From positions 1 through 35,190 of the forward strand of contig JAJTGR010000050.1 in assembly GCA_021299375.1 (NCBI GenBank): a DNA stretch of 35,190 nucleotides, in the 5' to 3' direction. A program made the translations under genes and the position numbers. This DNA is from Gemmatimonadota bacterium. Lineage in GTDB: Bacteria > Gemmatimonadota > Gemmatimonadetes > Gemmatimonadales > Gemmatimonadaceae. The notes under the pieces were generated by a model. That model saw nothing but the letters and a program-made list of their open reading frames with translations. It had not been told where the DNA came from and did no database searches. This document shows positions 18,938-34,083 of the stretch, in pieces (position 1 is the first letter of the stretch; each line of letters begins with the position of its first letter).

Positions 18938-20359
18938 CTACCACACCGGCGTGTCGGGAAGCACCACCAGCGGCGCGCGTCCCTGCTGCGCTCCCTCCAG
19001 GTGCAGCAGCGCCACCCCCACGCCGGCGCTCCCTTGCATGTACCCGGTTTGGGCCTTGAGGTCCTCCGGCGTCGCGCGATTTTCCGCTTGCACCCATCGC
19101 AGGGTGTCCCCCTCGGTGGTCGCGCGCGCCACGGTGTTGTCCATCACCCGCTGCGCGAACGCCAGGTCGGCGGGATCACGCGTGACCCGGAAACGCGCCG
19201 TGAAGTACTCGGCCACGCCACAGTTGCCGCAGCACTGCGAGATGTTGTTCCAGAATCCCGACCGATCGGGGTGCTGCTCGGGGACGCCGCTGTCGATGAT
19301 CCCACGGCTCAACTCCGGGAGGCGCGCACTCCACGCGGGGTTGCCGGTCAGGCGCGTCAACTGCCGGTAGAGGCGTGCGGTACCAGCGGGCCCGTGACAC
19401 CAGCTCAAATAGAACAGCTGCTCGCCTCCCGGCTCGGAGTGAAAGATGCGGCGCCCGCCGTTGCTGGTGCGGGTGGTGATGCGCTCCAGATACCGCGCGG
19501 CAGCCAGCGCGCCCTCCTGCGCAGCGGCGGCAGGGGCCCCACCCTGCGTGCCCCGCAGCGCCTCATGCTGCGCCAGCGTGGCCAAGGTGTACCCCACTCC
19601 CGCGGCACCGTGCGAGAAGTTGGGGTAGCGCCGCGGCATGAGGGGGGTGATGGCCCACGTGAGACCGTCAGCGGCCGGGCGGCCCGCCGCCAGCAGGGAC
19701 TGTGATGCGCCACGCAGCAGGGCATCGGTGTTCGCGCCGTGCGGCGTCTGCGCGCCCAACCACGCCAACGTCAGGGCAATCCCCGCGGTCCCCGAGATGA
19801 TGTCGGTGGAGTCGTTCCAGGCAATGCCGGCATCGGACGGGCGCGCTGACTGCTTCAACAGCGCGACCAGGTGCGCCACGCCACGGTCCAACTCGGGGGC
19901 GTTGGCTATCCGCTGCACCAGCGCCGCCACGTATGCGAGACCGGCCACCCCGGTGTACAGCCCCGCCCCGTCGCCGCTGATGCCCCCCGCTGACGACGGC
20001 GCCGCCGCTGTCAGCGCGCGGGTACCGGCTACGGCCTCCTTCAGGTAGCGCTCGTTGCCGGTGGCGTGGTGCAGCTCGAGGTAGAACAGCACCACGCCGG
20101 CGCTGCCGCTGTAGAGGTCGGGGGTGATGGCCGAGGGCATCGCCGGATCGGCGGGCCAGCGTACGCCGTCGCGGTCGCGCACCGCACTGGCTGCGATCCA
20201 TCGTTCGGCCGACAGCGCGGCGGCGCGATAGTCGGCGGGCGCACCGCGATGGCGCACGCTGTCGGGGGAGGAGGCGAGGGCGCGTAGCACGCGCGGGGGG
20301 GCCACCCACGAGGCAGCGGCAAGGGCGGCGGTGTGCGCCAGGGCAGTCCGGCGGTCCAT
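18938..20359 (-). CDS. Exported LanC-like protein with Cys-Cys-Gly zinc motif
   Basis: A 473-aa alpha/alpha toroid. Seven repeats carry the LanC glycine motif: LYSGSAGVVLF, LYTGVAGLAYV, IISGTAGIALT, FSHGAAGVGYT, SWCHGPAGTAR, QCCGNCGVAEY and YMQGSAGVGVA. In LanC cyclases a zinc is held by the Cys of WCxG and by the Cys and His of CHG. Here the first is Cys321 (WCHG) and the second motif is CCG (Cys376-Cys377), a three-Cys set known from some LanM/ProcM-type cyclases. The N-terminus MDRRTALAHTAALAAASW is a Tat-like signal, so the enzyme should act outside the cytoplasm; an ATG at 20413 would add 18 residues. No lanthipeptide precursor or dehydratase was seen nearby, so a role in lanthionine formation is unproven. 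It diverges from the lipoprotein gene. Confidence 0.85.
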   Translation of the reverse strand: MDRRTALAHTAALAAASWVAPPRVLRALASSPDSVRHRGAPADYRAAALSAERWIAASAVRDRDGVRWPADPAMPSAITPDLYSGSAGVVLFYLELHHATGNERYLKEAVAGTRALTAAAPSSAGGISGDGAGLYTGVAGLAYVAALVQRIANAPELDRGVAHLVALLKQSARPSDAGIAWNDSTDIISGTAGIALTLAWLGAQTPHGANTDALLRGASQSLLAAGRPAADGLTWAITPLMPRRYPNFSHGAAGVGYTLATLAQHEALRGTQGGAPAAAAQEGALAAARYLERITTRTSNGGRRIFHSEPGGEQLFYLSWCHGPAGTARLYRQLTRLTGNPAWSARLPELSRGIIDSGVPEQHPDRSGFWNNISQCCGNCGVAEYFTARFRVTRDPADLAFAQRVMDNTVARATTEGDTLRWVQAENRATPEDLKAQTGYMQGSAGVGVALLHLEGAQQGRAPLVVLPDTPVW

Positions 20360-20521
20360 GGAGCGAAGGGGAGGGGGGAGTCGATCTGTCGTCACGTGCC
20401 ATTTCCCGTTCATTCACGCTACCATCATTGGTGCAGGCCGGCCATCTCCGGTCATCGAGGCTCGGCTCCCGTCAAGGGCCACGAGCGAGTATGGCGCGAG
20501 CTCCCTCTGTTCCATAACGTT

Positions 20522-21429: not shown

Positions 21430-21833
<404 letters not shown>

Positions 21834-21837
<4 letters not shown>

Positions 21838-22304
21838 GCCGTCGCAAGAGTGCCGTGAAGCGCACCGTCCTGCCGGACGCGCGCTACGATAGCCAGACTG
21901 TCTCGAAGTTCATCAACAACCTGATGATTCAGGGCAAGAAGTCCACCGCCGAAGGCATCTTCTACGGCGCCATGGACATCGTCGAGGCGAAGACCAGCCA
22001 GCCCGGTGTGGGCGTGTTCAAGCAGGCGCTCAACAACCTCAAGCCGGTCGTCGAAGTGAAGAGCCGCCGTGTCGGTGGTGCTACCTACCAGGTGCCGGTC
22101 GAAGTCCGTCAGGACCGCCGCACGGCCCTGGCCATGCGGTGGCTCATCGGATATTCGCGCGATCGTAACGAGAAGAGCATGGCCGAGAAGCTCGCGGCCG
22201 AAGTGCTGGCGGCGTCGCGTGGCGAGGGCAACGCCATCAAGAAGAAGGAAGACACGCACCGCATGGCCGAAGCCAACAAGGCGTTCGCGCACTACCGCTG
22301 GTAA
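21834..22304 (+). CDS. rpsG: 30S ribosomal protein S7
   Basis: A 156-aa S7 that nucleates assembly of the 30S head. It starts with [20 protein letters not shown] and ends with [12 protein letters not shown], as usual for the family. The start is a GTG overlapping the rpsL stop (GTGA), preceded by GGAGGT. A terminator palindrome follows 18 bases after the stop, so fusA is not in this transcript, unlike the usual str operon. Confidence 0.99.
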
Positions 22305-22322
22305 GTGTTCCGCTGGACACTC

Positions 22323-22358
22323 CGAAGGCCCCGGGAATTCCCGGGGCCTTCGACGTTT
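22323..22358 (+). terminator. Terminator of rpsL-rpsG
   Basis: A perfect 30-base palindrome (22323-22352, centred on GAATTC) gives a 13-bp GC-rich stem with an AATT loop, followed by ACGTTTCG. A second weaker inverted repeat (GTGGACCATGG at 22365, CCGTGGTCCAC at 22411) follows downstream. Confidence 0.85.
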
Positions 22359-22526
22359 CGCCCGGTGGACCATGGTGGTTTCGTGGGGGGGTCACTGGCG
22401 AAAGCCGTCGCCGTGGTCCACGTTAAGGCCTTCTCGGGGCCGGTCCGCCGGTCTGCAGCCCTTGCGCCGCAGCGGTGTGCAGGCAACGGTCGGTTACGCG
22501 GCATTTTCGCCGCGCGTCCTGCCGAT

Positions 22527-23417
22527 GTGTCCGGCTCTCACGCGTTGCACTCTCCGATCTCCCTGCGAATCCCGCGCTTGCCTCACGTCTTGCCATTTTT
22601 TCGCGCCGTCCGGCGTGGCGCCCGAGTCTTGACGCTGCTCGCGCCGGTCGGCCTCGCTGCACAACCTGGCGACAGCGTCCGCGTCGTGGCGCCTGCCAAG
22701 CCGGCCTCCTGGCATGTGCAAGCCTCAGGGTACTACAGCTCGGCAGACAACGGTTTCGGCGTCTGGCGCGGTCAGGATGTGCGCCTCCTCTATTCCGGCA
22801 AGCGCTTCAGCCCCTTCTTCAGCTTCGGTTCGCAATCGCGCTCCAACGGGCACCAGGAAGCGTACGGCGCCGGGTCCTACGTGGTGCTTACCCCGTGGAT
22901 GTTCAGCATCGTGGGGGTGGGCGTGGCGCCCGACCGCGGGACGGTGCTGTTCCCCCGGGTACGCACCGACGCGAGCCTCTTCGTGGCCGTGCCGGGCGTG
23001 AAAGGCGTGCTGATGTCCGGCGGCGTGACCGACTTGCGGTTCACCGATTCGCGCGCCGGTGGCCGCATCTACTCGCTGGGGCCGACGGTCTACAAGGGGC
23101 GCGGCATTTACTCCGGGGCCGTCTATCTCAACCGGGATCGGGCAAGCGGCGCGCGATCGCACTCGTGGCAACTCGGTGGCCAGTGGGGCGCCCAGGGACA
23201 GTACTGGGTCGGCGCGGGCGTCGGCGCGGGCAACGAAGCGTACCGGCTCCTGTCGGCCACGCCGTTTGATGCCCGCTTTCGGAGCCAGTTCGCCTCGGCG
23301 TTCGTGTCGAAGTGGATCACGAAGGGCACCGGGGTCTCCGTGCGCTTCGATGGCGAGCGCAAGCTCGACGTGTTCAATCGGCGTGCGATCGGCCTGACGT
23401 ACTTCGTTGACTTCTGA
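22527..23417 (+). CDS. YaiO-like outer-membrane beta-barrel protein
   Basis: About 296 aa. After a signal-like segment (RRGARVLTLLAPVGLAAQ) the protein is a run of amphipathic strands rich in Tyr, Gly and Ser, for example WHVQASGYYSSADNGFGVWRG and KGTGVSVRFDGERKLDVFNRRAIG, and it ends in YFVDF with a terminal Phe as in barrel proteins. It resembles the YaiO family, found beside GT2 polysaccharide synthases. The start is uncertain: GTG 22527, TTG 22578 or TTG 22590, none with a clear SD. It is the first gene of a tight plus-strand operon (3 bases to the next gene). A role in exporting or anchoring the polysaccharide is inferred. Confidence 0.75.
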   Translation: MSGSHALHSPISLRIPRLPHVLPFFRAVRRGARVLTLLAPVGLAAQPGDSVRVVAPAKPASWHVQASGYYSSADNGFGVWRGQDVRLLYSGKRFSPFFSFGSQSRSNGHQEAYGAGSYVVLTPWMFSIVGVGVAPDRGTVLFPRVRTDASLFVAVPGVKGVLMSGGVTDLRFTDSRAGGRIYSLGPTVYKGRGIYSGAVYLNRDRASGARSHSWQLGGQWGAQGQYWVGAGVGAGNEAYRLLSATPFDARFRSQFASAFVSKWITKGTGVSVRFDGERKLDVFNRRAIGLTYFVDF

Positions 23418-23420
23418 TTG

Positions 23421-25424
23421 ATGGCGGAGCCTCGCGCCAGCCGTTCGTTCTTCGGGGCCACGCGCACCGCGGTGGCCTTCGGGCTGGCCGCCGTGGGCAG
23501 CCTCGCGCTCTACCTCGCGCAAAGCCAGGCGGTGGTGCAGTGGCGATCGGGGGTCGACTACCTCGCCTTCGTGCTACGCTCGTTCGCGCAGACGCCGGTG
23601 CTGCATCCCATACCGCTCGATGGCCCCGCACTTCCGTGGGCATTCGGCACGATGGCCGTGGGGCTGGCGGCGTGTGTCGCCGTGGGGTGGTTCGTCTCAC
23701 GTGGCATGCGGGCCAGTCGAGGCGCCGCGCCGATGGGATGGGTCGCTGGCCTCGCGGCGGCCGTCGTGCCGCCCATGCTCATCGCGTCGGCGCGTTGGCC
23801 AGACGGTCAGGGGAGTGTCACGAACGGCGTGCTGGCCATCGGACACGCCCTCCTGGTGCCCCTCGCGTGGTGGTGGGCGCGGTCCCAACCGTTCAACCGC
23901 GTCGTGCGTACCGCGCCGCTTCCACCACGCAGCAGTGCCCCACCGCCTCTCGCCGACCTGCCGCGGGGCTGGGCGACGATCCTGCTCGTGGTCGCCGTTC
24001 CGCTCGCCGTGCTCGTGCTGGTGAACGGTCTGTCGTCGATCAAGGGATACGACTCCTTCAGCGACCACATCGCGAGACCGGCACGCTGGCTGGCCACGGG
24101 CCGGCTGGTCCCCGGCGTCGCCGAAGAAGTGGTCACGCATTATCCAGGCAACTTCGAGTTGCTCGTGCGCTGGACCCTCTCGCTGGGGACTGATCGTTTC
24201 GCGTTTCTGGTAGCCTACGGCAGCAGCGCGGCCTCGACGTGGGTCGTGTACCGACTGGCGCGTGAGGTCGACCAGGGACGGGTCGCCGCGTTGGTGTCGG
24301 CGCTCGCGGCTGCGTCGCTGCAGGTGCTCGCCTATCAGAGCGTCGTCGTATACAGCGACAGCTTCACGGCGCTCTGCCTGTTGCTGGCCACTTGGCTGTT
24401 GCTCGTCTGGATCCGTGAGGGTGCCGCCGACCGCCGGCTGGTGTTCGGGTTTGGGCTCGCGCTCGGCCTGGCCATGGGGGCGAAGTACTCGGCCGGCCCG
24501 CCGGCCGTCGTGCTGGGGCTGCTGTGGACGTGGCATGCCTGCCGCGACGTCACGCGGGAAGGCTTCGAGCAGCCGCTGGTGGACGTGCGTTGGCTGGCAC
24601 CGCAACTGGCGTGGCTCGTGGCGGGCGTGTTGCCGGGCATGGCCTTCTGGTATGCGCGCAATCTCGTGCTGCAGGGCAATCCCTTCTATCCGCTGTCGGT
24701 GGCGGGGCTGCCCGGCATTCCGCTGGGCAGCCTGCTTGCCGGCGCGCCGGGGCCGAAGACGCTCGGCGAGATCGTGAGCTATCCGTGGTTGGAAACCGGC
24801 CATGGCCCCGGCTTCGAAACGGGACTCGGCGCCACCGTTGCCACCATCGTGGTCCTGGCCCTGCTGGCCGGCCCGCTCGTGGCCAACAGGCGGCCGCGCC
24901 TGCGCCTCCTGTGGCTCGTGTGGGGCCTGACGTTTCTGGCGTGGGTGCAGTCGGGGGTCATGGTGCCCCGTTATGGACTGTACCCGATCCTGCTGGCGTT
25001 CGTGTTCGTGGGTGCATTGTTGAGCGCCTATCCCTCCGGGCTGCTCCGTTCGGTGGCGACCATCGCCATCACGGGGACCATGCTGGCGGTGGGCTTCGAG
25101 ATGGCGGGTGGCACCGCGTACAGTGCGTTGCTCTACGATCCACGCCCTCCGGTGCCAGCGGCCATCGATTCGCTGCCGGCAACGCAGATCTTGAACCTGG
25201 CGGGTGAACCGGCCGGCTACTACGCCATGGGGCACGACTATCGGCATCGCGTGCTGTCCCCCTTCCGGCAGTTCTCGCCGGATGATGCCCGTGCGGCCAA
25301 GTTGCCGTATCTCCTGCTGCCGCCGGCACGCGAAGCCGAGTTTCGTCGGGCGCTTCCCCTTCAGTTCATGGGTCGGTACGGGAGCGACAACGGACCCGGT
25401 TCATCGCTCTGGCATCTGCCCTAG
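23421..25424 (+). CDS. Polytopic GT-C glycosyltransferase (GT39/ArnT-like)
   Basis: A 667-aa membrane protein with roughly ten or more hydrophobic segments. The first periplasmic loop after TM (about 209-223) reads GYDSFSDHIARPARW, with the acidic residues expected for the catalytic loop of GT-C enzymes that take sugars from polyprenyl phosphate. A later loop has FWYARNLVLQGNPFYPLSV, a frequent signature of this group. The ATG follows the YaiO stop by 3 bases. It probably transfers a sugar onto a lipid-linked or surface glycan; donor and acceptor are unknown. Confidence 0.82.
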   Translation: MAEPRASRSFFGATRTAVAFGLAAVGSLALYLAQSQAVVQWRSGVDYLAFVLRSFAQTPVLHPIPLDGPALPWAFGTMAVGLAACVAVGWFVSRGMRASRGAAPMGWVAGLAAAVVPPMLIASARWPDGQGSVTNGVLAIGHALLVPLAWWWARSQPFNRVVRTAPLPPRSSAPPPLADLPRGWATILLVVAVPLAVLVLVNGLSSIKGYDSFSDHIARPARWLATGRLVPGVAEEVVTHYPGNFELLVRWTLSLGTDRFAFLVAYGSSAASTWVVYRLAREVDQGRVAALVSALAAASLQVLAYQSVVVYSDSFTALCLLLATWLLLVWIREGAADRRLVFGFGLALGLAMGAKYSAGPPAVVLGLLWTWHACRDVTREGFEQPLVDVRWLAPQLAWLVAGVLPGMAFWYARNLVLQGNPFYPLSVAGLPGIPLGSLLAGAPGPKTLGEIVSYPWLETGHGPGFETGLGATVATIVVLALLAGPLVANRRPRLRLLWLVWGLTFLAWVQSGVMVPRYGLYPILLAFVFVGALLSAYPSGLLRSVATIAITGTMLAVGFEMAGGTAYSALLYDPRPPVPAAIDSLPATQILNLAGEPAGYYAMGHDYRHRVLSPFRQFSPDDARAAKLPYLLLPPAREAEFRRALPLQFMGRYGSDNGPGSSLWHLP

Positions 25425-25446
25425 GCGACAGACGAGTCCGCCGCCC

Positions 25447-26181
25447 ATGGATCGTGACGCCTACCAGCTGATGGCGGCGGCCGAGCGGGACCACTGGTGG
25501 TTCCGCGGGCGTCGGGTCTTCATCGAGCGCGCGGTACGCACGCTGGCGTTGCCGGCGATGCCACGCATCCTCGACGCGGGCTGCGGATCGGGCGGCAACC
25601 TGGCGTTGCTGGCGCGGTTCGGCACCGTGTACGGCTTCGAGTACGATGCGGAGGCGCGGGCGGTAGCCGCGTCGCTCGGTATCGGCACCATCGCACCAGG
25701 GGCGCTGCCGGACGACGTGCCGTTTCCTGGCACCCCGTTCGACGTGATCGGTCTTTTCGACGTGCTGGAGCACCTGCCGCAGCCCGTCGAGTCGCTGCGA
25801 GCGCTGGCTGCGCGCCTCGCACCGGGTGGGGCGCTCATTCTCACGGTGCCGGCACTCCCATGGCTCTGGGGGCCACACGATGTGGTGCACAATCACTTCC
25901 GGCGCTATACGGCCGCTACGTTGCGTGCGCATGTGGCCGAAGCCGGGCTGCGTGTGGAGCGCCTCACGTACATGAACGCGCTGCTGCTGCCGTTGGCTAT
26001 TGTGCAGCGCGTGAAGGAGCGCCTGTTCGGGTACCGCGTCGAGGCCCTGTCTCCCTCGCCGGTGGTGAACCGGCTGCTGTACCGCACGTGGATGCTGGAG
26101 CAAGCATGGATCCCGCAGCGGCGGCTGCCGATCGGGCTCTCGCTGCTGGCCGTGCTCCGGTGTGCCGAGAGGTCGTCATGA
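25447..26181 (+). CDS. Class I SAM-dependent methyltransferase
   Basis: A 244-aa enzyme. SAM motif I is ILDAGCGSGGN (41-51), the acidic motif II is VYGFEYD, and the later LFDVLEHLPQP and LAPGGALILTVPALPWLWG are typical of methyltransferase 11/23 proteins. The start HWWFRGRR is common in sugar or lipid methyltransferases next to glycosyltransferases. It overlaps the GT2 gene by ATGA and is likely to modify a glycan or its carrier; the target is unknown. Confidence 0.88.
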   Translation: MDRDAYQLMAAAERDHWWFRGRRVFIERAVRTLALPAMPRILDAGCGSGGNLALLARFGTVYGFEYDAEARAVAASLGIGTIAPGALPDDVPFPGTPFDVIGLFDVLEHLPQPVESLRALAARLAPGGALILTVPALPWLWGPHDVVHNHFRRYTAATLRAHVAEAGLRVERLTYMNALLLPLAIVQRVKERLFGYRVEALSPSPVVNRLLYRTWMLEQAWIPQRRLPIGLSLLAVLRCAERSS

Positions 26182-26951
26182 GCGACGGACCACGCGTGGC
26201 GCTGGTGGTGCCGTGCTACAACGAGGCCCGTCGTCTCGACCGCGACGCCTTCGCCGAGGCCCTGGCCGCGTCACCGTGGCTCGACCTCATCTTCGTCAAT
26301 GATGGCAGCACCGACGGGACCGTGGGCCTCCTCCACGCGCTCCGGGACCAGTGGCCAACGCGGGTCGAGGTGCTCTCCCTCGAGCGGAACGCCGGCAAGG
26401 CCGAGGCCGTGCGTCAGGGCCTGATGCGCGCCCTCGCCCACGAGGGCGTGTGTGGCTTCTGGGACGCCGACCTGTCGGCGCCGCTGGATGAAGTGCCCGG
26501 ACTGCGTACCGTGCTGGCGGAACATCCCCAGGTGGAATGGGCGTGGGGCATTCGCCTGCGCGCCCTCGGTCGCGAGGTCACGCGGCGCCCGGTGCGGCAC
26601 TATCTCGGCCGGCTCTTCGCGACCGTCAGTTCCCTGCTGCTGGCCATCGATTCGTACGACACGCAGTGCGGCGCGAAGCTCTTTCGTGTCTCGCCGCTGC
26701 TGCGTGCCGTACTGGCCGAGCCCTTTCGCTCACGCTGGATCTTCGATGTCGAACTGCTGTCCCGGGCCGATGCTCTCCTGCGCTGCGGCGGCACACGTAC
26801 GCTGTCCCAGGTGGTGTATGAGCAACCGCTCGCGGTGTGGCGTCACAAGCCGGGGTCGAAGCTCCGGAGCGGGGACTTCGTGAAGGCACTGCGCGAACTG
26901 CTGGTGGTGCGTTCGGCACGCCGGCGGTGGTATCGCGCCGGCGTGCCCTGA
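26178..26951 (+). CDS. GT2 family glycosyltransferase (dolichyl-phosphate-mannose-synthase-like)
   Basis: A 257-aa GT-A fold: VALVVPCYNEARRL, FVNDGSTDGT (Asp42), and the metal-binding GFWDADLSAP (Asp96, Asp98). It lacks membrane helices, like the DPM1/Alg5 group that makes polyprenyl-phosphate sugars. Such a product is the donor used by GT-C enzymes, so pairing with the GT-C gene in the same operon is functionally coherent (inference). The start ATG overlaps the methyltransferase stop. Its own stop is only 6 bases from the stop of the convergent bactofilin-like gene. Confidence 0.9.
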   Translation: MSDGPRVALVVPCYNEARRLDRDAFAEALAASPWLDLIFVNDGSTDGTVGLLHALRDQWPTRVEVLSLERNAGKAEAVRQGLMRALAHEGVCGFWDADLSAPLDEVPGLRTVLAEHPQVEWAWGIRLRALGREVTRRPVRHYLGRLFATVSSLLLAIDSYDTQCGAKLFRVSPLLRAVLAEPFRSRWIFDVELLSRADALLRCGGTRTLSQVVYEQPLAVWRHKPGSKLRSGDFVKALRELLVVRSARRRWYRAGVP

Positions 26952-26957
26952 GCCCCA

Positions 26958-28007
26958 TCAGCCCACCGTCAGTCCGCTCTCGCTGGCCATGACCGCCCCG
27001 TAGATCGTGGCGCCCGGCAAGAGCCGAATCACGGGCGCCGTGACCGTGGTGGGCTTACCACTGCCACCGACCACGGCGGCCTCGATGACGATGGCCGACT
27101 CCGAGATCACCGGTCCGCTGACGCGTGCCCCGCGCTCGATGGTGATGCGTTTTCGAGCCGCCAGGGAGCCAGCCACGACGGCGCCACTTCGCACGATGAT
27201 CTCGTCGTGCGCCTTGAGTGATCCGGTCACACGAGCCCCATCGTTGATGACGATCGCGCCGGTCGCCACGACGGAACCCGCCAGCATGGCGCCGGCCGGG
27301 ATGGGCAGGCCGCCGTCAATGCGCCAATAGCTGGGACCGACCTGCTTGCCGTATGACGGGACGAACCGCGCGTAGGCACCGCTCGGCAGCAGCGCGGCTT
27401 CGCTTGTTTCCTGATCCGTGACGCGCACGACAGCCGACTCCAAGCGATCGAAGGCGACACCCGTCCCGAGAATGATCGCGCGCTCCGCGGTCGCGCGGCC
27501 GAGCAGGCGGCTGCCATTGCCGACTTCGAGCCGCCCGCGCGCGTGGATCCACCGCAGGACGGTGGACGCCTCGCCGAGCAGGATGTCGCGCTGGCCGAGG
27601 ACGGCGCGATACGTACCCCGCCGCCCCCCGCGCATCGTGAGGCGCGCCAGGCACTCCGCCACCAACTCGCAGCCGTCGGGCAGCGGTTCGCTGTCCATGA
27701 GCACGACCAGGTCGGTGATCGGCGTCCGCTGCGCCGGCAGGGGAGCGTTGACGGAGTGCGCGCGAATGCCGGTGCCGTCCGACAAGCGCGGGGGCACCAT
27801 CGTCCCCAGCAGGCCCTCACGGGTGGCACGCTGCGTAAACGACTCGGCAAAGTAGGTCAGGCGGCCAGCGTCGTTGCCCACGGCGTTGAGCGGCGCCGCA
27901 TCGCGGGGGCGTAGCAGCTCGAAGACCGCCGGCAGCAGCGGGATCGCCATCCAGCCGATCAGCGCGAGCAACAGCAGCGCGAACGCTGCTTCGGGAGAGC
28001 CGGCCAT
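26958..28007 (-). CDS. Membrane-anchored bactofilin-like protein (polymer-forming cytoskeletal)
   Basis: 349 aa. A single hydrophobic segment at about 7-27 is followed by a middle domain, then from about residue 225 short repeats such as IPAGAMLAGSVVATGAIVIND, GARVTGSLKAHDEIIVRSGA and GARVSGPVISESAIVIEA. These make the right-handed beta-helix of bactofilins (DUF583). Bactofilins polymerise under the membrane and localise cell-wall or envelope enzymes. An N-terminal anchor and a long middle part are unusual. Its start overlaps the GT2 stop (ATGA), so it is translated with the synthase and may act as scaffold for it (inference). Confidence 0.8.
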   Translation of the reverse strand: MAGSPEAAFALLLLALIGWMAIPLLPAVFELLRPRDAAPLNAVGNDAGRLTYFAESFTQRATREGLLGTMVPPRLSDGTGIRAHSVNAPLPAQRTPITDLVVLMDSEPLPDGCELVAECLARLTMRGGRRGTYRAVLGQRDILLGEASTVLRWIHARGRLEVGNGSRLLGRATAERAIILGTGVAFDRLESAVVRVTDQETSEAALLPSGAYARFVPSYGKQVGPSYWRIDGGLPIPAGAMLAGSVVATGAIVINDGARVTGSLKAHDEIIVRSGAVVAGSLAARKRITIERGARVSGPVISESAIVIEAAVVGGSGKPTTVTAPVIRLLPGATIYGAVMASESGLTVG

Positions 28008-29287
28008 CAGCGCGTCTCCTCGCCACCGGGGCGGGTTTCACGGTGGCGCTCCGTCTTCTGCCAGCGCACCGGCTGGCCGCGCAGCCATGACGCGCGCGAG
28101 AACGAGGCGCGACCCACCGCGAAGGTGCTCACGAGGAACCCGAGAAAGAGCAGCGGAAGCATCCGGATGCGCTCACGCGATCCGTCGAGCCGGCTGGCCG
28201 CGGCCACCTGGAAGAACGCCGCGAAGTTGCCGACCGTATTGAAGGACGAGATGGCGAGGATGGTGAGGATGCCCCATTCCGGCGGATACCCCGCGTAGAA
28301 GAGCAGGATGGTGCAGGACCACCCAAGCAGCAACACCAGCGGCACCACGAAGACGCCCAGCAGGAGCACGCCGTCGATCACTTGCCAGAAGGGCAGGTGG
28401 GTTCGGTTGAGGATGAGGGCCGTGACGTAGCGGCGCAGCGCCTGGTTGTGCCCCTTGGCCCAGCGCTTGATCTGCCGGATGCGCGACTCCCATGTCTCGG
28501 GCACCTCCTCGTAGCACTCGGACCGGTTCTGGTAGACCACGTCCCAGCCGGCGATCACGAGGCGGACGGTGAGGTCGGTGTCTTCGGCAAGCGACGACGT
28601 GTTCCAGCCGCCCACGTGCTCGAGGGCCACGCGACGCACTCCCCCGACCGTGCCCCCGTACTGCGGCACCAGGCGCAGATTCATGCGCGCCTGCTGGTCC
28701 ACCTGATAGCCGCCGGCGCGCTCGAGGTCGAGCAGGCGCGTGAGCAGGGACACGCCCACGTTGAGCGGCACCACGCGGCCCATGACGGCACCCACCTCGG
28801 GGTCGAAGAACGGGGCCACGAGCTGCTTGAGGAGCCGTTCGCCGGGGATGTAGTCGGCGTCGAAGACCAGGAAGATCTCGTCGTCGTGCAGGGCCATGGC
28901 CTCGGACAGCGCGGCTGCCTTGCCGGGCATCCCGCCGTCGCGCAGGAACGGCACCACCTGCCCGGCGTACCCCTCGGCATACTCGAGGAGGATGGCCCGG
29001 GTATCGTCGGTCGACCGGTCGTCGATCGGCACGATCTTGAGCCGGTCGGTCGGATAGTCACAGGTGAGCAGCGCGTCGAGCGAGTCGCGAATCACCCGCG
29101 ACTCGTTGTGACAGGGCACGTACACCACCAGCGACGGCCAGTCGGCCTGGATGACGTCGACGAAGGGCTGGCGATGTCGCCCGAACAGCCGGTTCAGCGT
29201 GAAGAAGTAGTGACGGAACGTGTAGATGGCGAGGATCGCGATGCAGATCCACAGGCCGGTATTCGCGAGGGCGATGAGGGTACTCAC
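28007..29287 (-). CDS. BcsA/YaiP-like processive GT2 glycosyltransferase
   Basis: 426 aa. One N-terminal membrane helix is followed by a GT2 domain with Asp89-Asp90 (PIDDRSTDD), the metal motif FDADYIP (143-145), AEDTD (catalytic Asp at 236 or 238) and QIKRW (272-276), then three or four C-terminal helices. The D, DxD, D, QxxRW set marks processive synthases of cellulose, hyaluronan or poly-GlcNAc type. No PilZ domain was seen, so no c-di-GMP switch in this subunit. It starts at a GTG overlapping the upstream stop. The nearby epimerase suggests an N-acetyl-hexosamine polymer (inference). Confidence 0.92.
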   Translation of the reverse strand: MSTLIALANTGLWICIAILAIYTFRHYFFTLNRLFGRHRQPFVDVIQADWPSLVVYVPCHNESRVIRDSLDALLTCDYPTDRLKIVPIDDRSTDDTRAILLEYAEGYAGQVVPFLRDGGMPGKAAALSEAMALHDDEIFLVFDADYIPGERLLKQLVAPFFDPEVGAVMGRVVPLNVGVSLLTRLLDLERAGGYQVDQQARMNLRLVPQYGGTVGGVRRVALEHVGGWNTSSLAEDTDLTVRLVIAGWDVVYQNRSECYEEVPETWESRIRQIKRWAKGHNQALRRYVTALILNRTHLPFWQVIDGVLLLGVFVVPLVLLLGWSCTILLFYAGYPPEWGILTILAISSFNTVGNFAAFFQVAAASRLDGSRERIRMLPLLFLGFLVSTFAVGRASFSRASWLRGQPVRWQKTERHRETRPGGEETR

Positions 29288-30261
29288 GCCCGTCCTCCGA
29301 AGCCGAGGCGGCGCCAGAGCAGGCCACCGACGCTGAGGGCCCGTACCACCTGCGTGCCGATCGGCGTGATGGCGCGAACGGAGCCGGGCGTGGGTGTCGG
29401 GCGCGGACGGGAATCGGGGTAGCGGGCGGGCGTCGTGGGCGGGCGCCGGTCAGTGGCATCGAGCACACCACCCGAGCGCCAGCTCATGCCCCAGCCGTAC
29501 AGCGCGACGTACACGAACACGTCGAGCAGCACCCCGAAGACGAGAAACATCATCGGCATCGCCAGCAGCGACCCGCGATAGATGACCCACGTATGGACGG
29601 CAGCCTGCAGCGGCAGCAGCACGGCGAGATGCCCGAGCAGCAGCGCGCCCATGGCGAACTTCTGCCAGAGCAGAAAGTCGAAGATGTGGAAGGTGAAGGC
29701 CACCAGGAACGGGGACAGCACCAGGATCACGACGCCGCACACCAGCAGCCCGCTGACGTACACCGGTAGGTCATACGTGAACGGCGGGTGCATGAACGTG
29801 AACCACAACTGCGCGGTCAGTTGGATGATGGACAGGAAGCGCAGGAAGTACTTGACGGGTGTGAGGCGACCATTGAGGAAGAAGCTCACGGCGAAGAGCA
29901 GCACCGTCACCAGCCAACCCGTCTGCAGGTCGCGCGCTTCCGGCCAGTAGGTGCCGGCGGTGAAGTACGGAATGGCCACGGCGAGCGGGCCGACTTCGAA
30001 GACACGGGTGGCCGTGAGGCCAGGCAGGCCAAGCGGTTCCCGCACGGCATCGAAGAACTCGCGCCACCCACTCATCAACGGGTCGATGAAGGCGAGGGTG
30101 AAGGTCGCGAAGAGCACCGGCAGCACCAGCAGGTCCACGAGCAGCGTCCACGAGACCTCGAGGCCGATCATGGCCCGATGCGGGGCGATGCGGCCGCCGC
30201 GGAAGCCGCGGTCCCGCAACTGGTCGATGCGGCGGGACGGTCTACCTGTTACACGAGACAC
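29284..30261 (-). CDS. Polytopic membrane protein of the polysaccharide operon
   Basis: 325 aa with about seven hydrophobic segments between residues 35 and 255, and a Pro/Arg-rich tail. Family not recognised. The GTG at 30261 gives a basic N-terminus; a later start at MIGLEVSWTLLV (about 30171) is possible. The gene overlaps the BcsA-like gene by GTGA and follows wecB by 53 bases. It may be a partner channel or accessory subunit of the synthase, judged only from position and topology. Confidence 0.7.
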   Translation of the reverse strand: MSRVTGRPSRRIDQLRDRGFRGGRIAPHRAMIGLEVSWTLLVDLLVLPVLFATFTLAFIDPLMSGWREFFDAVREPLGLPGLTATRVFEVGPLAVAIPYFTAGTYWPEARDLQTGWLVTVLLFAVSFFLNGRLTPVKYFLRFLSIIQLTAQLWFTFMHPPFTYDLPVYVSGLLVCGVVILVLSPFLVAFTFHIFDFLLWQKFAMGALLLGHLAVLLPLQAAVHTWVIYRGSLLAMPMMFLVFGVLLDVFVYVALYGWGMSWRSGGVLDATDRRPPTTPARYPDSRPRPTPTPGSVRAITPIGTQVVRALSVGGLLWRRLGFGGRA

Positions 30262-30314
30262 CGAAGTTCGCTCCGGAGAAAACGGACCATGGGCGTACGG
30301 CGCGGCGCGGGCAT

Positions 30315-31523
30315 TCAGCCGCCACCGGCGAGGCGTTCCAGGGTCGCATTGATCTGGTCATGATGGAGGCGGCGGGGGCCGCGATGTTCGGGCGGATGCC
30401 GCAGGCGCGTGTCGACGACCTCGGCGATCCGGTTGGCGGCGCGGCCGTCACCGAAGGGATTGGCGCCGGACGTACGCGCCGCGTACAGCGCCCGGTCCGT
30501 GAGGAGCGCGGATGCGCGGGCGAGGATGCGGGTGGCATCGGTGCCCACCAGCTCCCCGAATCCGGCGTGCACGACCTCGGGGCGTTCGGTCGTATCGCGC
30601 AGGATGAGGATGGGCTTGTTGAACGACGGGACCTCTTCCTGGATCCCGCCGGAATCGGAGAGCACGAAGGCTGAGCGGCGAATGAGCTCGAGGAGTTCCG
30701 GATATGGCAGGGGTTCGAGCAGGTGGATGCGGGGCACGTTGCCAAGGCGCGCGAACACCACGTCGCGGACGCGGGGATTGAGGTGCACCGGAAACGCGAT
30801 CTCGACGTGCTCGTGCATGCGCACGATGCCCTCGAGGGCATCGCAGATCGCCTCGAGGTGTTCGCCGAGCGACTCGCGTCGATGCACCGTCGTGAGCAGC
30901 ACACGGTGCTGGTCCCACGGGAGGCGATCGAGGACCGGGGTGTCGAAGCGCTCGCGGGCCGGAATCATGTGCAGCGCATCGACGACGGTATTGCCCGTGA
31001 CGAAGATGTCGCCATCGGGGATGCCCTCGGCGATCAGGTTGTTCCGGGCCTCGGTGGTCGGCGCAAAGTGGACGTCGGCCGTACAGGTGGCGATCCGGCG
31101 GTTCACCTCTTCGGGAAACGGGCTGGAGAGGTCGAAAGAGCGCAATCCGGCCTCGACGTGCCCGATCGGGATGCCCTGGTAGAAGCCGGCCAGGCAGGCG
31201 GCGGTCACCGTGGAGGTGTCACCCTGCACCAGCAGGAAGTCGGGCTGGTGCGCCAGAAAGGTCTCGGTGAGGGCGGCCATGGCCCGCGATGTGAAGACCC
31301 CGAGGTTCTGGCCGTTCTGCATGAGACCGAGGTCGATGTCCGGCACAATCCCGAACACGTCGAGCGCCTGGGTGAGCATCTCACGATGCTGGGTCGTGGC
31401 GATGACGAGCGGTTCAAGCGCGGGATGAGCCCGAATGGCGTCGACGACCGGGGCCATCTTGATGGCTTCCGGCCGGGTGCCGATCACGAGACACACGCGC
31501 TTGGGACTGGGGGGAACAGACAT
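30315..31523 (-). CDS. wecB: UDP-N-acetylglucosamine 2-epimerase (non-hydrolysing)
   Basis: A 402-aa enzyme converting UDP-GlcNAc to UDP-ManNAc. Signatures: VIGTRPEAIKMAPVV, GDTSTVTAA, HVEAGLRSFD, FPEEVNRR, TVHRRES, LSDSGGIQEE and RDTTERPEV, which cover both Rossmann lobes and the catalytic acidic and His residues. The start MSVPPSPKRVCLVIG fits the family; a longer frame would add 17 unlike residues. It heads the minus-strand operon with the membrane protein and BcsA-like synthase, suggesting UDP-ManNAc or GlcNAc as precursor. It diverges from fusA. Confidence 0.95.
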   Translation of the reverse strand: MSVPPSPKRVCLVIGTRPEAIKMAPVVDAIRAHPALEPLVIATTQHREMLTQALDVFGIVPDIDLGLMQNGQNLGVFTSRAMAALTETFLAHQPDFLLVQGDTSTVTAACLAGFYQGIPIGHVEAGLRSFDLSSPFPEEVNRRIATCTADVHFAPTTEARNNLIAEGIPDGDIFVTGNTVVDALHMIPARERFDTPVLDRLPWDQHRVLLTTVHRRESLGEHLEAICDALEGIVRMHEHVEIAFPVHLNPRVRDVVFARLGNVPRIHLLEPLPYPELLELIRRSAFVLSDSGGIQEEVPSFNKPILILRDTTERPEVVHAGFGELVGTDATRILARASALLTDRALYAARTSGANPFGDGRAANRIAEVVDTRLRHPPEHRGPRRLHHDQINATLERLAGGG

Positions 31524-31962
31524 CGGGTGGCGGCATCCGGGGACGGGGAGTACGAAAGACGGCGGCCCTGCCACCGACCGGTTGGGCCCGGGGCAATATG
31601 GCGGGTGCGCGCCGGGCGGCTAGGGGCGTGGGGAGCGACGGGAGGCCGCGAGGGGCGACGCGGCGGTGCGGGAGGGTTGACATCCGCTCCCGAGGGCGCG
31701 AGGTTAAGAGTCTGCCGAAAAACCCGTGCCACGCACCGGGACCGGCCCCGTTTCACGCCAACTCAACGTCGGTCATTGAAGTCTGCAGGTCTTCGATGAT
31801 CGGCGCGCCTTGGGTCCCCACTCGTGCTGCAGCGGCGAGCGTACCCGGCGACAGCGGATGGATACCGCTCCCGCGCCACGGCGGGGGGACTGGTCCAGCC
31901 GTTTTTTTGCTGGTCCACTCAGCTCACTTACTGCGCCGTCTCGGCGGCGCTGACCGAAGACT
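31524..31962 (+). promoter_or_regulatory. wecB-fusA divergent region with fusA promoter and long leader
   Basis: 439 bases without a gene. A perfect TTGACA (31677-31682) is the best -35; the nearest AT-rich -10 candidate is GTTAAG (31703-31708), 20 bases on and weak. The leader would be about 250 bases. It contains a small hairpin (AGCGG/CCGCT, 31853-31869), a run of seven T between CCAGC (31895) and GCTGG (31909), and a direct repeat CTGGTCCA (31890 and 31910). These could be attenuator parts, but no specific riboswitch is recognised. Confidence 0.45.

Positions 31963-34083
<2,121 letters not shown>

Follow-up and report, generated by a model that had tools for sequence, protein, structure and literature searches.

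A candidate synthase-dependent exopolysaccharide system that combines a WecB epimerase, a PgaC-class glycosyltransferase, an anchored bactofilin and a YaiO-family barrel in Gemmatimonadota and other phyla

Eight genes that lie between rpsG and fusA, and thus inside a ribosomal-protein (str) operon, raise the question of what they make and which of them belong together. The window (the whole stretch of DNA analyzed, a complete contig of 35,190 bases) has the gene order rpoB, rpoC, rpsL, rpsG, cassette, fusA, tuf, and the closest relatives of its source genome appear to be members of the genus Gemmatimonas. Within this genus a cassette of 9 kb interrupts the str operon (rpsL-rpsG-fusA-tuf; window positions 21430-34083), and the rpsG-fusA distance is ∼240 bases in G055, a genome of the same order and another family. 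The initial annotation described two convergent operons 6 bases apart, with a bactofilin added by overlapping translation, and both descriptions held: all eight genes were found where it had placed them (Table 1), the gap between the operons is 26952-26957, and the translational overlap is real because GT2 and bactofilin share 1 base and the membrane protein (MEM) and GT2 share 4 bases at their starts and stops. Its family assignments for YaiO, GT-C, methyltransferase, DPM-like GT2, WecB, and bactofilin were borne out by Pfam/NCBIfam models. The yaiO open reading frame spans 22305-23417 and its true start is uncertain, with 22527 being plausible; the wecB reading frame reaches 31574, and its first conserved start is 31523. 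Upstream of rpsL, the minus strand (18938-20413) has sequence motifs, recognized by eye, that point to a LanC-like protein of the lanthionine cyclase type. From sequence comparisons, we conclude that the minus-strand operon together with YaiO probably constitutes an undescribed synthase-dependent exopolysaccharide system (rough probability of 0.75 for this explanation as a whole).

Table 1. Features of the rpsG-fusA slot in the window, with the PEP-CTERM-type genes found in relatives.
Feature	Position	Strand	Evidence or remark
rpsL	21430-21837		precedes rpsG
rpsG, left slot border	21834..22304	+	sequence; relatives 92-99% identity, cassette at same border
YaiO-family outer-membrane beta-barrel, divergent "type A"	22527..23417	+	TIGR04390 E 3e-48; C-terminal Phe
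GT-C (PMT/PMT_2-like), multispan glycosyltransferase, optional module	23418..25424	+	PF13231 1e-6, PF02366 2e-5
SAM-dependent methyltransferase, optional module	25447..26181	+	PF13489 (Methyltransf_23) 1e-20; travels with YaiO and GT-C
GT2, polyprenyl-phosphate-sugar (ArnC/DPM-like) kind, optional module	26178..26951	+	PF00535 (Glycos_transf_2) 1e-15
Membrane-anchored bactofilin	26958..28007	-	PF04519 3e-8
Processive-type GT2 synthase (PgaC/NodC class), predicted	28007..29287	-	PF13641 2e-29; catalytic motifs
Membrane protein MEM, six predicted TM helices	29284..30261	-	no Pfam/NCBIfam family
WecB, non-hydrolysing UDP-GlcNAc 2-epimerase	30315..31523	-	TIGR00236 3e-132
fusA, right slot border	31963..34083	+	sequence; relatives 88-97% identity
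PEP-CTERM-type genes	L021:6003-7109; L023:7010-7978; L024:12047-12823; L025:12565-13677; L032:3416-4420; L046:7605-8459		in relatives, between wecB and fusA

The family matches and motifs of the minus-strand GT2 are consistent with an inner-membrane synthase of the processive type. The window protein possesses D90, D143xD145, E235D236, and Q272xxR275W276; among 81 GT2 sequences the D90, DxD, ED, and QxxRW positions are invariant or nearly so, with Q272xxR275W276 present in 81 of 81. A QxxRW motif is typical of processive family-2 synthases. The enzyme had been labeled BcsA-like, a label that we abandon because it scored higher against the PgaC/IcaA model (TIGR03937; 121.9 bits, cut-off 422.3) than against the BcsA/CelA model (TIGR03030; 78.5 bits, cut-off 699) and Pfam/NCBIfam models revealed no PilZ domain. 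The same curated cut-offs exclude both a BcsA-like and a PNAG identity. No NfrB or c-di-GMP model matched the window GT2 at E 0.05, whereas the GT2 of a sister cassette (see below) does match. Conceivably, the enzyme is not processive and adds single amino sugars onto lipid or protein to yield a glycolipid or glycoprotein, as its scores lie far under the cut-offs of every characterized polymer synthase and the solved structure nearest to it by sequence is a family-2 enzyme other than cellulose synthase. We consider this improbable in view of the invariant QxxRW motif, the outer-membrane barrel that is nearly always linked to GT2, and the polysaccharide deacetylase and possible glycoside hydrolase encoded in related loci; a processive-type synthase is the assignment that we favor.

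The putative outer-membrane partner, YaiO, matches TIGR04390 over its full length (164.6 bits versus a cut-off of 32). The window and E. coli YaiO proteins have no significant BLASTP match to each other and are linked by the profile alone. The initial annotation had drawn a parallel to E. coli, where yaiO sits beside yaiP; the parallel is limited: YaiP is 23% identical to the window GT2, and the E. coli K-12 locus contains neither bactofilin nor wecB. At that level of identity, yaiP was also rejected as the GT2 orthologue. Searches of the window cassette proteins yielded no TPR match (Pfam), and no PilZ or MshE-type domain was detected in the eight proteins (Pfam/NCBIfam). MEM exhibits a beta-hairpin at 83-100, the core of its AF2 model has a pLDDT of about 90, and no convincing fold match was obtained (Foldseek best E 0.27; VIA best Z 6.8). 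This six-helix protein could be a co-polymerase.

The bactofilin scores 34.4 bits against PF04519 (cut-off 27.9) and comprises an N-terminal TM segment (5-31), a beta-helical N-domain (80-196), and the bactofilin domain (about 232-330), in an AF2 model with pLDDT 88.5. A TM-like segment begins all 80 bactofilins from the related loci described below, and the arginines that follow the TM helix suggest that the beta-helices are cytoplasmic. The bactofilin domain superposes on Thermus bactofilin 6ria, its top fold match, with Z 10.2 and 1.6 A over 88/90 residues. One could instead regard the protein as a glycan enzyme or chaperone, like the left-handed beta-helix acyltransferases, rather than a scaffold: there are weak matches to Ice_binding and Hexapep_GlmU, the N-terminal beta-helix is not a bactofilin domain, and other beta-helical proteins, acyltransferases included, reach Z 7-9 against the model. 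We give this proposal little credence, however, as the protein passes the Pfam cut-off with Thermus bactofilin as its best structural counterpart, the Escherichia fergusonii version retains mainly the anchor and the bactofilin domain, and the operon of that species encodes a separate acyltransferase. A scaffolding bactofilin is the reading we retain.

We examined the distribution of the system in 30 genomes of the genus, several of them incomplete. MEM was detected in 15 of these and bactofilin in the same 15, while YaiO was found in every genome with the system (15/15) and in none of the others (0/15; counts uncorrected for shared ancestry). The order WecB-MEM-GT2-bactofilin between rpsG and fusA is found wherever contigs permit, and most of the system-positive members that have no plus operon beside it have a yaiO internal to the minus operon, between wecB and MEM. 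The two operons had been viewed as one set that co-occurs in relatives, which stands for the minus operon with YaiO and does not stand for the full plus operon: among the 15 genomes with the minus operon, the latter is absent in complete form from 10, and these mostly contain the internal yaiO. An indivisible unit of two operons is thereby ruled out, and GT-C, methyltransferase, and DPM-like GT2 are optional. The plus operon adjoins the minus operon only in the window, G004, and G020. The YaiO/GT-C/methyltransferase/DPM-like module of G026 and that of G011 reside on a separate contig from the minus operon; wecB of G026 directly adjoins MEM with no yaiO between, and both YaiO matches of G011 are on other contigs.

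Such a distribution might mean that the plus operon serves glycosylation of the surface or of proteins and has no tie, apart from its position, to the exopolysaccharide operon next to it, a reading to which its absence in complete form from two-thirds of the minus-operon genomes (10/15), its unlinked position in two genomes, and the strong divergence of type A YaiO from type B all lend something. We regard it as rather unlikely, because GT-C occurs in exactly 5 of 61 genomes searched, each of them with the minus operon even where the two are unlinked, and the internal yaiO is missing in 5/5 GT-C genomes versus 1/10 others (Fisher p 0.002, uncorrected for phylogeny). In the YaiO tree, type A and the solitary YaiO of G012 group together on one branch (100/100), separately from the internal YaiO of the genus and of other phyla. 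The internal YaiO is therefore the general form, for which the module swapped in a diverged relative, and this strongly supported separate branch excludes the idea that the minus-operon yaiO simply moved into the plus operon. For a module that serves the polymer, the usual logic of side-group addition offers a model: a DPM-like GT2 charges a polyprenyl carrier, which a GT-C enzyme uses in the periplasm. The DPM-like GT2 here weakly matches, by sequence, ArnC and DPM synthases of known structure. From the co-occurrence, the GT-C/DPM-like GT2/methyltransferase module probably places a lipid-linked side group on the polymer, and its own YaiO variant, which replaces the original yaiO of the operon, may suit the decorated chain.

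The rpsG-fusA interval is a site at which polysaccharide cassettes are swapped. In system-negative members of the genus it often contains an NfrA/NfrB/WecB-type cassette instead. G005, G006, G015, G017, G028, and G029 have a second type of WecB there, and an NfrB-like GT2 is also present in G005, G006, G013, G015, and G017. In the G028 slot, which was read through, WecB comes after a TPR-barrel protein and an NfrB-like GT2 that carries a c-di-GMP domain. Near rpsG of G008 and G025 (L050:1973-12000; L052), we observed a third type of polysaccharide cassette, which encodes a cellulose-synthase-like GT2; that of G008 also encodes a TPR protein bearing a BCSC_C domain. In G007 (L031:4482-7670), a second copy of the last 31 codons of rpsG directly precedes bactofilin, ∼2.6 kb downstream of the complete gene, a layout that resembles insertion of an element accompanied by duplication of the rpsG 3' end. 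Whichever cassette is present, relatives have a PEP-CTERM-type gene (VPEPS...RRR end) between wecB and fusA; no gene of this type lies in the corresponding gap of the window, which is <450 bases.

WecB scores 441.2 bits against TIGR00236 (cut-off 210), matches solved 2-epimerases down to E 3e-105, and has invariant active-site residues K39 (E. coli K15), D119, E141, and E155. The lysine equivalent to K39 is needed for function of the E. coli enzyme (WecB K15A; PMC8669472). Among 19 genomes of the genus, wecB occurs once each in the 9 with the system and the 5 with the Nfr-like cassette and in 0/5 with neither; none of the 19 has both systems. UDP-ManNAc thus seems to be made in the genus only for these two cassettes. 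The glycan of the E. coli Nfr system has been proposed to contain ManNAc (PMC8669472). Both the presence of an Nfr-type cassette in the same slot and the restriction of wecB to genomes with either cassette favor an earlier guess that the polymer is built of N-acetylmannosamine or glucosamine, and the polymer probably contains ManNAc.

To survey the system beyond the genus, 84,980 species genomes were scanned with two GT2 motifs, giving 361 relatives, of which the best 80 were examined. These 80 GT2 relatives share 54-88% identity, and their hosts include Gemmatimonadota, Acidobacteria, Beta- and Alphaproteobacteria, Eisenbacteria, Rhodothermales, and others. Core genes were detected with profiles built from the genus sequences; when run on 15 rpsG regions from system-negative genomes, these profiles gave no match for bactofilin, MEM, or YaiO. 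In the best 80 of the 361, bactofilin adjoins GT2 in 80/80 loci, MEM is present in 74/80, WecB in 68/80, and YaiO in 65/80, with the core genes on a single strand in 78/80. When only the 46 loci with 17 kb or more of sequence are counted, 40 have all five core genes; the other six lack one core gene each (WecB in four, YaiO in two), and for one of the YaiO-less loci, L060 (that of G026), YaiO is elsewhere in the genome. The most frequent gene orders were WecB-GT2-bactofilin-YaiO-MEM (31), GT2-bactofilin-WecB-YaiO-MEM (15), and WecB-YaiO-MEM-GT2-bactofilin (10), and across orders GT2 is paired with bactofilin and YaiO with MEM. A phylum-wide search located MEM in 22 of 298 Gemmatimonadota. Beta- and acidobacterial loci encode extra proteins, among them a polysaccharide deacetylase (PF01522, in the loci of Ralstonia and Terriglobia) and a protein with weak resemblance to glycoside hydrolases. 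One contig with Gemmatimonas-like rpsG and cassette (L067, CALQGY020000163.1; GT2 84% identical) is filed under Candidatus Kuenenia stuttgartiensis and, because of those genes, is probably misbinned or mislabelled.

The operon is also found on an E. fergusonii conjugative plasmid and on the E. coli AH19B041 chromosome, where NCBI annotation, which labels the bactofilin a polymer-forming cytoskeletal protein, gives the order bactofilin-wecB-YaiO-hypothetical-acyltransferase-hypothetical-GT2; the hypothetical protein after YaiO on the plasmid is MEM by profile (E 1e-19). In both Escherichia settings (L143:4693-14580 for AH19B041, L141:2581-11117 for the plasmid) the operon adjoins genes for a phosphoadenosine phosphosulfate reductase and an IbrB/ParB-like protein, suggesting that the operon and these two neighbors were transferred as one block. 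Taken together, the conserved unit consists of five proteins: WecB, the PgaC-class GT2, the anchored bactofilin, the six-helix MEM, and YaiO. The initial annotation was right to join YaiO, WecB, GT2, and bactofilin in one system, as they recur together across many phyla and YaiO tracks the minus operon in the genus; of the wider gene set that it expected to be conserved, the five-protein core recurs and GT-C, methyltransferase, and DPM-like GT2 do not belong to the fixed part.

We propose the following scheme. WecB, given its strong family membership, would turn UDP-GlcNAc into UDP-ManNAc. GT2, which has the catalytic motifs, would polymerize an N-acetylhexosamine, most likely ManNAc or ManNAc/GlcNAc, and extrude the chain. 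MEM would pair with the synthase and, since its gene constantly accompanies yaiO, may link the synthase to the outer membrane, where the YaiO barrel is a plausible, putative exit pore. The helix-anchored bactofilin, if it polymerizes as its family does, would cluster or position the synthase. Related loci additionally encode a polysaccharide deacetylase, a possible glycoside hydrolase, or an acyltransferase. A bolder picture, which we put forward only tentatively, is of a phylum-spanning machine in which an obligate anchored bactofilin arrays the synthase-exporters and its filament directs a ManNAc polymer through a TPR-free YaiO pore. If these proposals are true, one more widespread synthase-dependent system exists, with soil and water bacteria as its hosts and Escherichia as a rare one, and the latter occurrence makes it testable in tractable hosts. 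They would also provide a concrete function to test for YaiO, an outer-membrane protein of unclear role, and a bactofilin partner outside peptidoglycan synthesis, and they would make the spatial organization of bacterial polysaccharide synthases directly testable.

A 2020 survey puts the number of known synthase-dependent polymers at five; bactofilin, YaiO, and WecB go unmentioned in it (PMC7112194). Our searches of the open-licence literature found no paper joining YaiO with bactofilin, or a polymer-forming cytoskeletal protein with UDP-GlcNAc epimerase. Like the described systems of this type, the present one has a predicted processive-type inner-membrane GT2; most of them also possess a periplasmic TPR protein, a deacetylase, or a c-di-GMP domain, whereas the window has none of the three, and its operons encode no periplasmic polymer-modifying enzyme. 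The E. coli Nfr system similarly combines a GT2 synthase, an outer-membrane barrel, and WecB, and an Nfr-like version fills the same slot in sister genomes, but the window lacks the TPR-barrel NfrA and the c-di-GMP domain of GT2 and adds bactofilin, the six-helix protein, and YaiO. For Pga/Ica, PgaC/IcaA provides the nearest curated model of GT2 and related loci encode a deacetylase, as PgaB; in contrast, GT2 is below the cut-off, and the window has WecB and bactofilin and no PgaA TPR porin, PgaB, or PgaD. The E. coli yaiO-yaiX-yaiP-yaiS locus likewise places a YaiO-family barrel beside a GT2, with an acyltransferase and a deacetylase as in some relatives of the system, yet in K-12 it is devoid of wecB and bactofilin and its yaiX is broken by IS2. 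Bcs and the cortical belt of Gluconacetobacter share with our system an inner-membrane family-2 synthase and the idea of a cytoskeleton: a cytoplasmic cytoskeleton has been proposed to array the cellulose synthases of Gluconacetobacter, with the belt protein unnamed and not tied to bactofilin (PMC7811197). Unlike Bcs, the GT2 scores far under the CelA cut-off, and BcsB, BcsC, and PilZ are absent from the window. The bactofilins of Caulobacter (BacA/B), Helicobacter (CcmA), and Thermus resemble the window protein in domain and fold; the window bactofilin differs in its TM anchor, its extra beta-helical domain, and its genetic tie to a polysaccharide synthase instead of peptidoglycan enzymes. 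The system thus resembles a synthase-dependent exopolysaccharide system yet, judged by their curated models, stands outside the Pga, Bcs, and Nfr families.
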